This document shows positions 6,762 to 61,440 of a stretch of 64,000 nt of DNA, in pieces. The notes below the pieces were generated by a model. It saw only the letters and a program-made list of their open reading frames with translations. It did no database searches and had not been told where the DNA came from. The DNA comes from Candidatus Altimarinota bacterium (GTDB taxonomy: Bacteria > Patescibacteriota > Gracilibacteria > UBA4473): positions 1-64,000 of the forward strand of contig JAIPJB010000004.1 in assembly GCA_021734395.1 (NCBI GenBank), in the 5' to 3' direction. How positions within the stretch are numbered: the stretch's first letter is position 1; each line of letters opens with the position of its first letter. The position numbers were made by a program, and so were the translations under genes.

Positions 6762-7309
6762 AAAAAATATTTTGGATTCTCTGTGTCATCTTCCCATTTT
6801 TCCGCATTAAAGTGAATATATTTTTGAATTTTCTCAAGGGATTCGGTGCTTCGAATAATATGTTCATAAAATCGGGATTGCCATTGAAAATGAAGGTCTG
6901 GGAATTTCTTATTTATTTCACGTGTGCAAATAGATTTAAATGATCGAATAATCACCGATAATGAAGCTGGCTTGAGATAATAAAATGTATTTGATTTTCT
7001 TGTAGAGACGCAGCAATGCTGCGTCTCTACCTTTTTATTGATAACAATAATTCCATGCAGATGATTGGGCATGATAATAAATTCATCTAATTCTGTACTC
7101 ACAAAATGATTTGGGGTCGCCTCCCAAAATTTCTGAACCATACGCCCTATTTCATTTAATTCACATATTCCATTCTTAATTTTTCCGAAAACGCACGCGT
7201 GATTTTTTACACAAATCGTTACAAAATACCATCCTTCCTCTGAATAATCCCATTCCTTCAACCGCAGAGAAGAAATACGAAACGTATTCCTGAATTTCTC
7301 GTCTTCCAT
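6758..7309 (-). CDS. REP-associated tyrosine transposase (HUH, Y1 type)
   Basis: 183 aa, close to the normal length of RAYT proteins. The N-terminus RISSLRLKEWDYSEEGWYFV and ITICVKN-type strand are typical, the HUH pair is H83 and H85 in MPNHLHGI, and the catalytic tyrosine is most likely Y148 in QWQSRFYEHII, followed by YIHFN. RAYTs cut single-stranded DNA at REP hairpins and are usually single-copy housekeeping-like genes. The ATG touches the leuS stop (TAAATG) and the stop overlaps the glycosyltransferase start, so the gene is embedded in an operon rather than in its own insertion element. Residues 94-103 are encoded by a perfect palindrome. Confidence 0.9.
   Translation of the reverse strand: MEDEKFRNTFRISSLRLKEWDYSEEGWYFVTICVKNHACVFGKIKNGICELNEIGRMVQKFWEATPNHFVSTELDEFIIMPNHLHGIIVINKKVETQHCCVSTRKSNTFYYLKPASLSVIIRSFKSICTREINKKFPDLHFQWQSRFYEHIIRSTESLEKIQKYIHFNAEKWEDDTENPKYFL
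7002..7030. repeat. perfect 29-bp palindrome inside the transposase gene
   Basis: Fourteen-base arms (GTAGAGACGCAGCA / TGCTGCGTCTCTAC) around one base. It is translated in frame as VETQHCCVST between the HUH and Tyr motifs, i.e. a REP-like element that the reading frame tolerates. Confidence 0.9.
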
Positions 7310-10222
7310 TTATTTGACCACAAACCCCACAATCTTGCCGGGCACGAAAATTTCTTTTTTGATCTCCCCTTCCTTCAGGTATTTCGAAACTTTCTCCAAC
7401 TTCTTGGCCTCGGACAAAACCTCTTCTTTGCTCGCGTCTTTGGAAATCTGAAAATCTCCCCGCACCTTTCCATTGACCTGTACCGCATAGGTGACCTCTT
7501 CATCAATGAGAAACTGAGGATCGTATTCGGGCCAGGGTTCGTAGGCCAAAGTTTTAGCCTCCCCCAAAACCTCCTGCCAAATTTCCTCCGCCATATGCGG
7601 CGCAAAAGGAGAGAGTAATAAAGTGAATATTCGTAAGGCCGAACGGGAAATCGCTTTTTGATCGGACAATTCGTTGAGCAAAATCATTAACTGAGAAACT
7701 GCCGTATTAAACTTAAATTCATTCACATCATCACCAATTTTCTTGATACTCTTGTGGATTAGTTGAACACATTTTTTGTTCAAGTTTTCTTCGGTTATTG
7801 GTTTTCCACAAAGTTTCCACACCCGATCCAAAAATCGCTTTACGCCCGCCAATGCACCACTATCCCAGGCAATCGCCTGATCAAAAGGTCCCATAAACAT
7901 TTCGTAGACCCGTAGGACATCGGCTCCATATTCACGAATAATGTCGTCGGGATTGATGACATTCCCGAATGATTTGGACATCTTGCGTCCATCCTCAGCG
8001 AGGATCATCCCGTGAGAAATTCTTTTGGCGTAGGGCTCTGACGTAGGAACATAACCACAATCGTAGAGAAATTTATGCCAAAATCGTGAGTAAAGTAAAT
8101 GCAGTGTCGTATGCTCCATACCACCGTTGTACAAATCTACCGGTGTCCAGTAGTCCAGTTTTTTTCGATCGGCAAAAACCTGATCGTTGTGCGGATCGAT
8201 ATAGCGCAGGAAATACCACGAACTCCCCGCCCAGTTGGGCATGGTGTCAGTCTCCCTCTCCGCATCTCCACCACATTTGGGACACTGAGTCTTCACCCAA
8301 TCTTTCGCTCGGGCTAGAGGCGATTCCCCTGAATCGGTCGGCTGGTACTCTTTGACTGGGGGTAATTCTAATGGAAGTTCGCTTTCGGGGAGTGACACCG
8401 TGCCGCATTTAGAGCAATGAACCACCGGAATCGGTTCTCCCCAATATCTCTGGCGAGAAAAAACCCAGTCACGAAGTTTGTAATTCACTTGGCGTTTTCC
8501 GATCCCCTCTGCCTCCAGATGCTGAATCATTTTTTCTTTTGCTATTTCTGTCGACAATCCATTCAAAAAACTTGAATTAATAGATATACCACCTCCAATA
8601 TAAAATTTATGACCTGTTTTATTTAAAAGTTTTTTATTTTCCTGAGAAGGTTCAACCACTTCCCGAATCGGCAGATCAAATTTCTTTGCAAATTCATAAT
8701 CCCGCTCATCATGCGCCGGCACGCACATGATCGCTCCCGTGCCGTAGCCCATCATTACATAATCCGCAATCCAGACGGGTATTTTTTCTTTTGTGGCGGG
8801 ATTGAGAGCATACGCTCCGGTAAAAACGCCGGTCTTTTCTTTTGCTTCCTGACGGGCTAAATCCGACTCTGTCGCCACTTTTTTCCGGTATTTTTCGACG
8901 GCTTCTTTTTGCTCGCTGGTCGTAATCTGGGAAACAAGTGGATGCTCCGGAGCCAAGACGAAGTACGTCGCTCCAAAAAGCGTATCCGGACGGGTTGTGA
9001 AAACTGTTACTTTTTCCCAGTCAAAAAAAACTCTTTCTTCTGCTTCGTTTCTTTTTTTTGGATTTTGGCGTACATATTCCAGAGTTTTTTCTAAATCGCT
9101 TGCTGATTTTATCGGTTCAAAATTATATCCGTCTCGCCACAATTTTTTATATGTATAACCCCTTTCCCTACGCTTTTTTTCTACCCCGATATCGGCGGGT
9201 TTAAACCCGCCATTATCTTTGAGAGTAGCATCTTCTTTCAGAAATTTTGAAGAGCTTCCTTTTATAACTTGCATCAATTTCTCCATATCTCTTTCTAATG
9301 GATCGGCAACAACTAAATGAATGTGATCACTCATCACCGCTCCCACGGCGATATAAAAATTATGTTTTCTTGCAATATCCCGAAATATTTTTTGCAAAGA
9401 AAGAGCGCATTCTTCATTTAAAGAAACATTTTTTTCTGTATTAAAAGTCAGCAAATAAAGAGCCGTGGTTTCTTTTTTTTCTCCTAAATTAAAATATTCT
9501 TTCCCTCTCAAAATATCCATTTCAAAATCAATTTCAGCTCCGTGACTTTTCCCAATCCAATTAATCTGCTGCGATTGAATTCGATCCAAAAAATCTACCG
9601 TCTCCAGATCATCAATCAGCCGATCAGCATATTTGGTAATCGCCAGCATCCATTGTTCTTTTTCTCGTTTTTCTACTTCACCTCCACACCGTTCGCACAC
9701 GCCATTGACGACTTCTTCATTGGCCAGACCGATTTTACAGCTCAGACACCAATTGATCGGCATCTTCTTTTTATAGGCCAACCCTTTCTCCAAAAGCTTC
9801 AAAAAGATCCACTGTGTCCATTTGTAGTACTGAGGATCCGTCGTATCGACCTCCCGATCCCAATCATAGGACAAGCCCAGCTCCTGCAGTTGCCGGCGAA
9901 ACGTCTGAATATTTTCATCCGTGGCCTTTCGCGGATGAATACCGGTTTTAAGTGCGTAGTTTTCGGTGGGCAGACCAAATGCATCCCAGCCAATCGGATA
10001 CAAAACATTGTAGCCTTCCATCCTTTTCTTTCGAGATACTGCGTCCAGTGCCGCATACGAACGCACATGACCGACATGAAGACCCGCTCCCGAAGGATAG
10101 GGAAACTCCACCAGTGTGTACCACTTCTTTTTTTCGCTGAAATCCTGTGCGGCAAAAATTTTTTCCTTCACCCAAAATTCTTGCCATTTCTTCTCGATCT
10201 TTATGTGATCGTAGTCTTTCAT
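7310..10222 (-). CDS. leuS: leucyl-tRNA synthetase with internal HUH-transposase domain
   Basis: 970 aa from the ATG at 10222, which fits the family start (MKDYDHIKIEKKWQEFW); an upstream ATG at 10291 would add 23 unrelated residues. Class I motifs: HVGH at about 49-52 and KMSKS at about 747-751. The zinc-type Cys pairs (CLSC, CERC, CSKC, CPKC) are present, as are the CP1 editing signatures TTRPDTLFGATY (about 409) and GTGAIMCVPAHDERD. Between GAEIDFEMD and VTVFTTRPD, where ordinary LeuRS has about 10 residues, there are about 165 extra residues of HUH-transposase type (see separate entry). No stop or frameshift interrupts the frame, so a full-length enzyme is expected. A TAGAAT box ends 8 nt before the ATG, suggesting a leaderless message. 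It heads a five-gene operon. Confidence 0.95.
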   Translation of the reverse strand: MKDYDHIKIEKKWQEFWVKEKIFAAQDFSEKKKWYTLVEFPYPSGAGLHVGHVRSYAALDAVSRKKRMEGYNVLYPIGWDAFGLPTENYALKTGIHPRKATDENIQTFRRQLQELGLSYDWDREVDTTDPQYYKWTQWIFLKLLEKGLAYKKKMPINWCLSCKIGLANEEVVNGVCERCGGEVEKREKEQWMLAITKYADRLIDDLETVDFLDRIQSQQINWIGKSHGAEIDFEMDILRGKEYFNLGEKKETTALYLLTFNTEKNVSLNEECALSLQKIFRDIARKHNFYIAVGAVMSDHIHLVVADPLERDMEKLMQVIKGSSSKFLKEDATLKDNGGFKPADIGVEKKRRERGYTYKKLWRDGYNFEPIKSASDLEKTLEYVRQNPKKRNEAEERVFFDWEKVTVFTTRPDTLFGATYFVLAPEHPLVSQITTSEQKEAVEKYRKKVATESDLARQEAKEKTGVFTGAYALNPATKEKIPVWIADYVMMGYGTGAIMCVPAHDERDYEFAKKFDLPIREVVEPSQENKKLLNKTGHKFYIGGGISINSSFLNGLSTEIAKEKMIQHLEAEGIGKRQVNYKLRDWVFSRQRYWGEPIPVVHCSKCGTVSLPESELPLELPPVKEYQPTDSGESPLARAKDWVKTQCPKCGGDAERETDTMPNWAGSSWYFLRYIDPHNDQVFADRKKLDYWTPVDLYNGGMEHTTLHLLYSRFWHKFLYDCGYVPTSEPYAKRISHGMILAEDGRKMSKSFGNVINPDDIIREYGADVLRVYEMFMGPFDQAIAWDSGALAGVKRFLDRVWKLCGKPITEENLNKKCVQLIHKSIKKIGDDVNEFKFNTAVSQLMILLNELSDQKAISRSALRIFTLLLSPFAPHMAEEIWQEVLGEAKTLAYEPWPEYDPQFLIDEEVTYAVQVNGKVRGDFQISKDASKEEVLSEAKKLEKVSKYLKEGEIKKEIFVPGKIVGFVVK
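9017..9514 (-). mobile_element. in-frame HUH (Y1/RAYT-like) domain inserted in LeuRS
   Basis: Residues about 237-402 of LeuRS. The segment reads TTALYLLTFNTEKN (first strand of Y1 transposases), then AVGAVMSDHIHLVV with the HUH pair at H300 and H302, then LMQVIKGSSSKFLK, then KLWRDGYNFEPI with candidate nucleophile Y366, then LEYVRQNPKKR, the usual RAYT tail (YI-NP-K). Both catalytic motifs are thus retained. It is shorter and more divergent than the stand-alone transposase next door and is not a copy of it. Boundaries are estimated from where LeuRS similarity stops and resumes. Confidence 0.85.
9194..9211. repeat. perfect 18-bp palindrome inside the LeuRS insert
   Basis: GGCGGGTTT / AAACCCGCC, encoding GGFKPA between the HUH and Tyr motifs. 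This is the same relative place as the palindrome in the neighbouring transposase, but with a different sequence. Confidence 0.85.
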
Positions 10223-19263: not shown

Positions 19264-19357
19264 ATTCTCTCTTCGTTCGAAAACTCTCTCCTCATTTCAC
19301 TTAAATCACAGAGAGGACATTCTCTCTTCGTTCGAAAACTCTCTCCTCATTTCACTT
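19264..19357. repeat. 39-bp direct repeat
   Basis: Copies at 19264-19302 and 19319-19357 are identical over about 39 nt (TTCTCTCTTCGTTCGAAAAC core). The gene-free stretch 19154-19474 also holds a palindrome GGTTCGAGCGAACC near 19382-19395 and a small CTTGC-TTC-GCAAG hairpin. No gene is visible there. Confidence 0.8.
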
Positions 19358-19446
19358 CGTCATTTCATTCCTCGTTCAATGGGTTCGAGCGAACCTACGG
19401 TTCTCGCCCATTCTTGCTTCGCAAGAAATAAAAAAATCCAAGCGAC

Positions 19447-40486: not shown

Positions 40487-40571
40487 GCGGAACAGATAAT
40501 AAGTGATTTCTTTCCCCTTTTTGTCATGCTGGAATTCACCTATGACGGATTTGTGAGAAGATTGCATCCCT

Positions 40572-40834
40572 CTTGCCTGCCCTGAGCGAAGTCGAAGGGT
40601 AAAAGGGGGATTGAGGGGGATTTGAATAAAATGAAGAGCAGAGGGATTCTCTCCTACCACCTCGCTTTGCTCGTGAACTCGAACGTTCAAATGCTCCCCC
40701 TTGCAGGGGGAGCGAGAGGGGGTATATATAGGTAGCGGAGGGATTACTCGGCTTCGCCTCTTTTCCTCCCCCTTGCCTGCCCTGAGCGAAGCCGAAGGGA
40801 AAAAGGGGGATTGAGGGGGATTTGAATAAAAATG
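40572..40834. repeat. 62-bp direct repeat, period 200 bp
   Basis: Copies at 40572-40633 and 40772-40834 differ at about three positions. Each contains a CCCTGAGCGAAG..CGAAGGG hairpin followed by AAGGGGGATTGAGGGGGATT. Between them is a perfect hairpin GCTCCCCC/GGGGGAGC (40693-40713). The stretch 40487-41041 has no gene. Confidence 0.85.
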
Positions 40835-40948
40835 CCGGAGGGATTCTCTTCCATTCTCCTTCCTCCGCTATGCGGAGTCAGTCCGAGGTCGAGGTATTTG
40901 CATCCTCCCCTTCGCTAAGCTCAGGGTCGGTGCAAATTATCGAACCCC
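40638..40948 (-). pseudogene. split 3' copies of tRNA-Arg
   Basis: Three copies of the T-arm/acceptor side of the adjacent tRNA-Arg, seen on the plus strand as GGAGGGATT or GAGGGATT at about 40638-40648, 40735-40745 and 40836-40845. In two of them the rest of the T loop (TCGAAC) reappears after an insert: 40678-40684 (insert about 30 nt) and 40940-40948 (insert about 94 nt, with a CTCCGC/GCGGAG hairpin). None could form a tRNA alone. Confidence 0.55.
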
Positions 40949-41009
40949 ATTTTGCTTCGCAAAATTTTGGGGTTCAAATCCCGTTCTTGTTAACAATGAA
41001 AAATAAAAA

Positions 41010-41028
41010 ATCACCCACAAGGGGTGAT
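41010..41028 (-). terminator. terminator of tRNA-Arg
   Basis: ATCACCC..GGGTGAT hairpin followed on the minus strand by TTTTTTATTTTTC, 14 nt past the CCA end. Confidence 0.8.
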
Positions 41029-41041
41029 ATTTTCATTTTTA

Positions 41042-41118
41042 TGGTACAGGCGGAGGGATTCGAACCCCCGACACCCGGTTCCGAAGACCGGTGCTCTATC
41101 CAGCTGAGCTACGCCTGC
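41042..41118 (-). tRNA. tRNA-Arg(TCG)
   Basis: 77 nt with encoded CCA. Acceptor GCAGGCG/CGCCTGT, anticodon stem CCGGT/ACCGG with loop CTTCGGA (anticodon TCG), T arm GGGGGTTCGAATCCCTC. It reads CGA without needing adenosine deamination. Confidence 0.95.
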
Positions 41119-41165
41119 TTGAATAACGAGTAAAACGAGGCAATGAAAGCTTTGGCGTACTACAG

Positions 41166-41218
41166 CCCCGCTAAAGCGGACCCCGCCTTGGCGGAGAGGG
41201 TGGCTGAGCTACGCCTGC
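41166..41218 (-). pseudogene. tRNA-Arg 5' fragment joined to two palindromes
   Basis: 41203-41218 repeats the first 16 nt of tRNA-Arg (acceptor strand and D-stem, GCTGAGCTACGCCTGC on plus). Where the D loop should continue there are two perfect hairpins, CCGCC-TT-GGCGG and CCGCT-AA-AGCGG. Same design as the broken tRNA-Leu. Confidence 0.65.
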
Positions 41219-41272
41219 GCAAAAGAACGGCAAGATTGTACAAACACTAAAAAGTTTCGCAAGCCTTTCTCT

Positions 41273-61059: not shown

Positions 61060-61140
61060 AAGAAAGATGGATGTACCTAAAGGGTATAGCCACCTTTCTT
61101 TATTGTCTGATAAGAACCCGTATTTGGGCGAAGCCAAAAT

Positions 61141-61246
61141 GGGTTCGATACGAGGAGTAAAGCAAATGGGAGCTTGCTCACAATTTGCGTACGACGACGT
61201 CACAAAGGTCGTTTTAACGACCGAAGTATTCCCGTCACGCGCTCCA
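61141..61246 (+). pseudogene. tRNA-Gly T-arm copy split by an insert
   Basis: GGGTTCGAT (61141-61149) and ATTCCCGTCACGCGCTCCA (61228-61246) are the two sides of the tRNA-Gly T arm plus acceptor. A 78-nt insert divides the T loop and contains a perfect palindrome GGTCGTT-TT-AACGACC (61207-61222). Confidence 0.7.
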
Positions 61247-61316
61247 GCGCGAAAATCGCCCTGAGTCCTTGTGACTGTGGGCGGTTTTTGCATGTGTGTA
61301 CGGGAAGCGAACCAGA

Positions 61317-61440
61317 GGGTTCGCTTTTTGACCATGAGTAAAGTTCCGAAGAAACAAAGCGAATCGGGCAAAAAGTTCTCGACTTCGGACCCCGAGCTTG
61401 TCGAGGGGGAGAATGAGAGAGTTTCCCGTCACGCGCTCTA
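61317..61440 (+). pseudogene. second split tRNA-Gly T-arm copy
   Basis: GGGTTCG (61317-61323) and TTTCCCGTCACGCGCTCTA (61422-61440) again flank a break at the same T-loop position, with a 98-nt insert carrying a CCCCGAG...TCGAGGGG element of the CCCTGAGC/GCGAAGGG repeat type. The gap 61060-61488 has no protein gene. Confidence 0.65.

Follow-up and report, generated by a model that had tools for sequence, protein, structure and literature searches.

Displaced ends of tRNA genes in a Patescibacteria genome as probable scars of small self-restoring cassettes

How does a tRNA gene come to be flanked on both sides by pieces of itself? The question is raised by the tRNA-Arg (TCG) gene in the window, i.e., the whole stretch of 64,000 nucleotides analysed here (contig C3, positions 1-64000), which belongs to a 1.02-Mb Patescibacteria genome in six contigs (G000). 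For comparison, the independently assembled genome of a congener (G001) was available.

The tRNA-Arg gene and its fragments

The locus reads as follows in the direction of the tRNA gene (t, tRNA position; X, hairpin module of a cassette).

41235..41262 (-): promoter-like site TTGCGA-16-TACAAT before the displaced 5' end (consensus scan)
41203..41218 (-): displaced tRNA-Arg 5' end, t1-16, to the D-loop; exact 16-nt copy, 100 nt upstream
41147..41202 (-): two palindromes and an antisense stretch folding back on the displaced 5' end (fold)
41042..41118 (-): intact tRNA-Arg (TCG), with CCA (ARAGORN; Rfam 66.5 bits)
41010..41028 (-): intrinsic terminator stem, start of the proximal cassette (fold z -4.3 for 40990-41041)
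40969..40982 (-): inverted T-arm copy (read from the sequence; in the fold, 40940-40948 is its pairing partner)
40940..40948 (-): second copy of the T-arm 5' half (GGGGTTCGA), left border of module X (exact match)
40847..40939 (-): hairpin module X of the proximal cassette; nearest relative behind tRNA-Thr (L035) of G000
40836..40846 (-): displaced 3' end no. 1 (t58-68), decayed past position 68 (exact match)
40735..40832 (-): middle, truncated unit without significant fold, ending in displaced 3' end no. 2 (t59-69, 40735-40745)
40641..40694 (-): distal unit with remnants of the inverted T/T-arm and of X, plus displaced 3' end no. 3 (t58-66, 40641-40649)

All pieces that the initial annotation had described around this gene are present, including the exact 5' copy and three downstream copies, which all lie on the strand of the tRNA itself. 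The missing half of the T-loop (TCGAACCCC) is found at 40940-40948, 93 nt from the first downstream copy; between the shorter TCGAAC (40679-40684) and the third copy, the distance is 29 nt. Upstream, the stretch 41147-41218 folds with -35.8 kcal/mol (z -3.4), and the promoter-like site is read as the old promoter of the tRNA; TACAATC and CCGTTCTTTTGC also precede the 5' copy of tRNA-Arg in G001. The proximal cassette has a strong fold (z -7.2), and its X aligns with that behind tRNA-Thr with a score of 49.5 (shuffle maximum 15.5). The cassette model R1, built from 25 units (two from E. coli and 23 from G000 and G001, in which hits are not independent), gives 74.2 bits for 40827-40987, itself part of the training set, and 18.8 bits for the distal unit (40638-40772), the fold of which is not significant. 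The distal unit resembles the only tRNA-Arg cassette of G001, with 85% identity over the 39 nt of 40644-40682 (G001:C7:56111-56149).

The flank contains a further, dispersed repeat of 70 nt around the palindrome CCCTGAGCGAAG, at 40562-40631 and, inside the middle unit, at 40762-40831; contig C6 has several more copies, and another lies at C1:194429.

Within 704 nt of flank, there are five exact matches of at least 9 nt to the tRNA, the longest of 16 nt, while dinucleotide shuffles yield a mean of 0.35 and none of 1000 reaches either five matches or a length of 16. The check proposed with the initial annotation, namely whether matches of 9-16 nt are as frequent in shuffled sequence, has, thus, come out in favour of its observation. 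Across the whole window, 9-nt matches to tRNA-Arg are common (35, the tRNA itself included), so that a single 9-mer is meaningless; it is the cluster, strand and order of the fragments that carry the signal. A second proposal, comparison with a related genome, revealed the same arrangement at the tRNA-Arg locus of G001 (L002). Since that genome was assembled independently and the architecture recurs in the complete genome of E. coli K-12, an assembly error is unlikely. The abundance of 9-nt matches in the window would fit chance or misassembly as the origin of the arrangement, but the shuffles, the G001 locus, E. coli K-12 and the own-versus-other test described below contradict this explanation to a degree that it can practically be dismissed.

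Own tRNA ends and the cassettes in two genomes

A stronger control than shuffling is the comparison of own with other tRNA ends over both genomes. For 41 tRNA genes of G000 (Rfam finds 43) and 39 of G001 (of 42), the gene's own 3' or 5' end was sought within 600 nt, using the ends of the other tRNAs as control and leaving out tRNA pairs with fewer than six differences. An own 3' end of at least 11 nt follows downstream on the same strand in 15/41 (G000) and 11/39 genes (G001), versus 4/1518 and 2/1394 in the control, and an own 5' end lies upstream in 6/41 and 6/39, versus 9/1534 and 1/1396. Within 600 nt of the same 41 and 39 genes, no own 5' end was detected downstream, and the opposite strand contains neither own 5' nor own 3' fragments; an own 3' end upstream occurs in one case (1/39, G001). 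Flanking by own fragments is not special to tRNA-Arg, but one case of a genome-wide pattern, with nearly half of the tRNA genes of G000 being flanked by displaced pieces of themselves.

In standard tRNA positions, counted back from the CCA end, downstream copies of at least 12 nt start at position 59 in 14 of 31 cases and between 57 and 61 in 22, and 25 of the 31 end at CCA. On the 5' side, the copies break off in the D-arm region (t12 to t24) or the anticodon loop (t36), and a palindrome follows most of them. That the breaks fall in loops and not at random places, as had been noticed at tRNA-Arg, is confirmed, with the T-loop (58/59), the D-loop and the anticodon loop as the sites concerned.

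The downstream unit, hereafter T-loop cassette, is about 180 nt long (most units 173-194 nt) and follows the order intact CCA, intrinsic terminator, inverted T-arm (often GGATGAGAACC), short loop, GGTTCG(A/C), X, and the tRNA's own 3'-end copy, which usually extends from position 59 to CCA. In most cassettes, X comprises about 50-100 nt; lengths down to about 30 nt occur in other genera (L003, L124). Nothing recognisable is encoded in the T-loop cassettes. Further units in the window are:

61060..61440 (+): two cassettes behind tRNA-Gly (TCC), own 3'-end copies at 61228-61246 and 61423-61438
19277..19415 (-): cassette behind tRNA-Leu (CAG), R1 33.4 bits
19766..19784 (-): 5' end of tRNA-Leu (CAA), t1-19, displaced and with a palindrome behind it; the spacer is akin to the Leu-TAG element

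The stretch before GAACC and the displaced end behind X are complementary, the mean pairing energy being -7.8 kcal/mol with the own copy versus -6.0 kcal/mol with others. Overall, the inverted arm fits the own copy best (0 of 20,000 permutations were as good), this match being individually outstanding in only 13 of 37 cassettes and worse than with more than 80% of the other copies in five of the 37. In 25 aligned cassettes, RNAalifold predicts five pairs without compensatory change; it is, therefore, the fit to the own tRNA, and not classical covariation, that supports the structural claim. A self-splicing intron or ribozyme in the T-loop was considered and rejected for want of Rfam support, since no intron family scored above its gathering score in the window and none appeared up to E 5 in eight loci.

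Two variants were observed in G001. Behind tRNA-Asp (L073), two cassettes in tandem contain X inverted relative to the others, and at two tRNA-Gly loci (L075, L087), a CTGCCTGCC palindrome interrupts the displaced 3' copies, indicating that palindromes enter scars, too.

Several units contain a GIY-YIG gene (PF01541 match above the curated cut-off). On the 5' side, such a gene lies shortly before tRNA-Leu-GAG, tRNA-Pro and tRNA-Gln-TTG in G000 and before tRNA-Met and tRNA-Pro in G001; on the 3' side, tRNA-fMet is followed by two tandem units with such a gene and tRNA-Ile of G001 by one. Counting small genes, i.e., without the three long ones (two of G000, one of G001), 5 of 11 (G000) and 4 of 11 (G001) are located at most 300 nt from a tRNA (P 2e-5 and 3e-4). 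All nine of these tRNA-adjoining genes are on the strand of the tRNA; a tenth, in the second fMet copy, is 332 nt away. In eight units, all at tRNAs other than tRNA-Arg, the GIY-YIG gene separates the intact tRNA from its displaced piece. The first part of the Leu-GAG GIY-YIG element can be aligned with the short Leu-TAG element (score 43.5, shuffle maximum 16), as would be expected if the latter were a deletion form of the former.

Probable insertion, array growth and competing explanations

The origin of the displaced ends can be followed at tRNA-Glu (TTC), the one filled/empty pair that was aligned in full. This gene has two cassettes in G000 and none in G001, with nearby reading frames agreeing between the two genomes. 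The G001 DNA right behind the tRNA aligns with G000 DNA past the second displaced copy (137 of 201 aligned columns identical; score 191.5, shuffle maximum 65). No such match to the G001 flank is seen for the G000 DNA adjoining the tRNA (score 40.5). Since the G001 flank resumes after the distal copy, the extra DNA sits between the restored and the displaced tRNA end. As in tRNA-integrating elements, the tRNA end recurs as a direct repeat on the far side, and there is an empty site that corresponds to the filled one.

This pair rules out plain tandem duplication at tRNA-Glu, and duplication driven by the palindromes, which the initial annotation had offered as an alternative, is excluded there as the sole cause, the DNA between tRNA and distal copy being unlike the native flank. 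More generally, an origin without mobile units, by tandem duplication or by slippage at the palindromes, appears highly improbable. Some arrays are clear duplications of a whole unit (tRNA-Lys, L036; tRNA-Asp, L073; tRNA-Pro, L045), yet besides the intervening DNA at tRNA-Glu, also the sharing of X among unlinked tRNAs contradicts it. The best partner of X lies behind a different tRNA gene in 29 of 37 cassettes (one of the 29, at tRNA-Ser, near noise level); the remaining best partners are six tandem neighbours in one array and two orthologous tRNAs of the other species. X, thus, travels, while the tRNA ends stay local.

Copies decay with distance from the tRNA. In two-copy arrays, the proximal copy is the longer one in six of nine cases, equal in two and shorter in one; the array with the longer copy in distal position speaks against insertion. 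The tRNA-Arg array fits growth at the tRNA side, as the proximal X has its closest relative at tRNA-Thr, the middle unit is a truncated one and the distal unit matches G001; only the distal unit, not the proximal one, is common to both genomes. The acceptor stem and T-stem of tRNA-Arg in G001 differ from those in G000, and both its upstream and downstream copies carry the G001 version exactly. These lineage-specific copies, given a distal G000 unit that looks orthologous, count against insertion, as they require gene conversion or transfer; the copies may have been made anew in the G001 lineage, or conversion may have come afterwards. A steady gene conversion equalising all copies fits tRNA-Arg of G001, but is ruled out by its tRNA-Gln (TTG), the copy of which has the T-stem of the G000 tRNA-Gln and not its own.

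Judged from these sequences, the fragments are probably (at about 0.72) the scars of small self-restoring mobile cassettes, inserted serially into tRNA loops by a putative enzyme. Directly supported are the copies of the own tRNA, the boundaries, one filled/empty pair, the occurrence of X at several tRNAs and the placement of the GIY-YIG genes. A T-loop cassette of about 180 nt would enter between positions 58 and 59 and leave the tRNA with an intact 3' end and a terminator behind it, pushing the original end, from T-loop to CCA, outward; the inverted T-arm could then pair with both halves of the displaced T-arm and tie up the loose acceptor strand. Newer cassettes would enter beside the tRNA, with older ones lying further out and decaying. 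A mirror-image type would enter the D-loop and restore the 5' end, the old 5' end staying beside the old promoter; at full length, this type would carry a GIY-YIG nuclease gene, short forms such as Leu-TAG being candidate deletion derivatives. We infer that the D-loop type is driven by GIY-YIG cutting and the T-loop type by a recombinase or repair event at the T-loop. Of the proposal in the initial annotation that palindrome-bearing units were repeatedly inserted into tRNA copies, the units and the repetition are retained, while entry into pre-existing copies is given up, as the pieces are best read as displaced ends of one tRNA gene.

A more specific enzyme within the same insertion process would be a tyrosine recombinase, with the T-loop as attB, the cassettes as attP circles and an integron-like array as the outcome. 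The geometry is that of integrative elements at tRNA genes, the junction lies in the symmetric T-arm, one X (tRNA-Asp of G001) is inverted at a palindromic TCGA, growth is at the tRNA side, and each genome has two full-length tyrosine recombinases (PF00589), with one fragment lying next to the tRNA-Met array. These recombinases may, however, be Xer proteins, the gene-free units of about 180 nt contain no integrase, and each cassette must bring the right acceptor end, yet X is common to different tRNAs; we, therefore, regard site-specific integration in this form as rather unlikely. Retention for an RNA function, with structured RNAs being processed from tRNA transcripts as for the RtT RNA of E. 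coli and kept and spread as useful, is an unlikely explanation as well. The architecture is common with RtT, the annotated RNA of which ends at the CCA of the copy, the proximal tRNA-Arg cassette folds strongly and the inverted arm is matched to the own copy. Against a retained function stand the decay of copies with distance, the terminator between tRNA and unit, the free exchange of X and the lack of a unit at some orthologous tRNAs.

Returning to serial insertion, a broader form can be put forward tentatively, at somewhat less than even odds: the T-arm, which almost all tRNAs and also tmRNA possess, might be a general docking site for self-restoring cassettes of about 180 nt, with an antisense T-arm tying the displaced end and arrays growing at the tRNA side like integrons at attI. 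RtT of E. coli would then be a relic and the D-loop GIY-YIG elements the gene-carrying counterpart.

With regard to other enzymes, a reverse transcriptase is present in G000, but was not found in G001 or in G003, a genome of another genus of the same family; tRNA-primed reverse transcription, which the 18-nt copy (59 to 76) had suggested, was, therefore, discarded as not needed. Matches to Y1 transposase-like proteins (PF01797) occur in all three genomes tested, in the window on the minus strand at 6812-6970 and 9227-9436. Just behind the two-cassette array of tRNA-Met, a C-terminal fragment of a tyrosine integrase lies in an 84-aa frame (G000:C6:191181-191282).

Behind tRNA-Glu (TTC), about 150 nt are conserved between the species, past the distal copy in G000 (L048, contig C5) and directly behind the tRNA in G001 (L081, contig C14). 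The stretch contains the hairpins GTGCACTAAGAGTGCA and TAGCTCGTAGAGCGA, L048 has no Rfam match up to E 5, and it is possibly an undescribed structured RNA.

Known systems and distribution

One similar repeat has long been known behind a tRNA gene of E. coli. In E. coli K-12 tyrT/tyrV, the 19-nt 3' end of tRNA-Tyr occurs six times with spacings of 175, 119, 178, 178 and 178 nt, in the order GGATGAGAA, GGTTCGA or GGTTCGG, X, copy. As in RtT (RF00391), the cassettes show the order GGRTGAGAA, GGTTCG, hairpins, GA(C)GAGTAATCC, acceptor, CCA, and follow a tRNA, the 3' end of which is repeated where the unit ends, at about 178 nt. They differ in the terminator before the unit, in the wide variation of X and in their location: RtT is found at tyrT/tyrV in E. 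coli, the cassettes behind many different tRNAs and, in another genus of the family, behind tmRNA. Two cassettes of G000 score 23.8 and 22.7 bits with the RtT model, and the best hit in a relative 35.3 bits, below the gathering score of 45; because the family score was tested and not reached, they are called RtT-like and not RtT. RtT is stated to occur also in other tRNA operons (PMC4986893), and a similarity of rtT to BIMEs has been noted (PMC2965389). BIME/REP elements have palindromes as found around the tRNA fragments here, and the three genomes tested have matches to Y1 transposases. REPs are not known to be tied to tRNA ends.

Large integrative elements (phages, ICEs, islands) leave tRNA fragments in the form of an intact tRNA and a displaced direct copy of its end, as described in PMC9897764. 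The cassettes resemble them in this respect, but are about 180 nt and not kilobases long, lack an integrase, contain an inverted T-arm and occur at nearly half of the tRNA genes. GIY-YIG homing endonuclease elements are like those units in which a small GIY-YIG gene lies between displaced and intact tRNA; the tRNA-Arg units of the window, in contrast, have no such gene. The rRNA genes of CPR bacteria contain short non-intron inserts, some with GIY-YIG genes, mostly at the tops or bases of stem-loops (PMC11270868). While these inserts stay inside the rRNA gene, the tRNA is restored here and the old end left as a scar. In the open-licence PMC literature, no description of such cassettes at many tRNAs was found; older work may cover part of it.

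If serial insertion is true, the 178-nt repeat of E. coli tyrT becomes one case of a wider class of mini-elements, and the arrays preserve a legible history of insertions that recurred at essential RNA genes, in which older tRNA sequence survives as fossils next to the living gene. This would also raise the testable question of how a tiny element serving many tRNAs gets the right acceptor end each time. For annotation, the cassette pieces explain the tRNA fragments around tRNA genes in this group.

Matches of R1 were obtained in 10 of 40 genomes of the class (E 0.01), including other families, and, at E 0.001 with stricter filters, in 2 of 192 genomes of the phylum, both from the family of the window's genome. 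Among 15 R1 loci outside G000, ten have a tRNA or tmRNA directly in front, nine of these ten with an own copy of at least 10 nt; none is in front at L113, L116, L122, L128 and L130. In G003, tmRNA is followed by a T-loop cassette that has an own copy of 20 nt (L112, G003:C21:48534-51667). The word pattern GGATGAGAACC-N0-30-GGTTCGA was found in 4 of 379 genomes of the phylum, with no own copy at its two matches outside the class (G201, G324), and evidence for cassettes outside the class is thin. Out of 20 viral contigs matched, 19 have no tRNA within the stretch examined, and one (L146) contains tRNA-Ala and an RtT-like cassette with a 16-nt copy; this is contig IMGVR_UViG_3300027542_000775, filed as viral.
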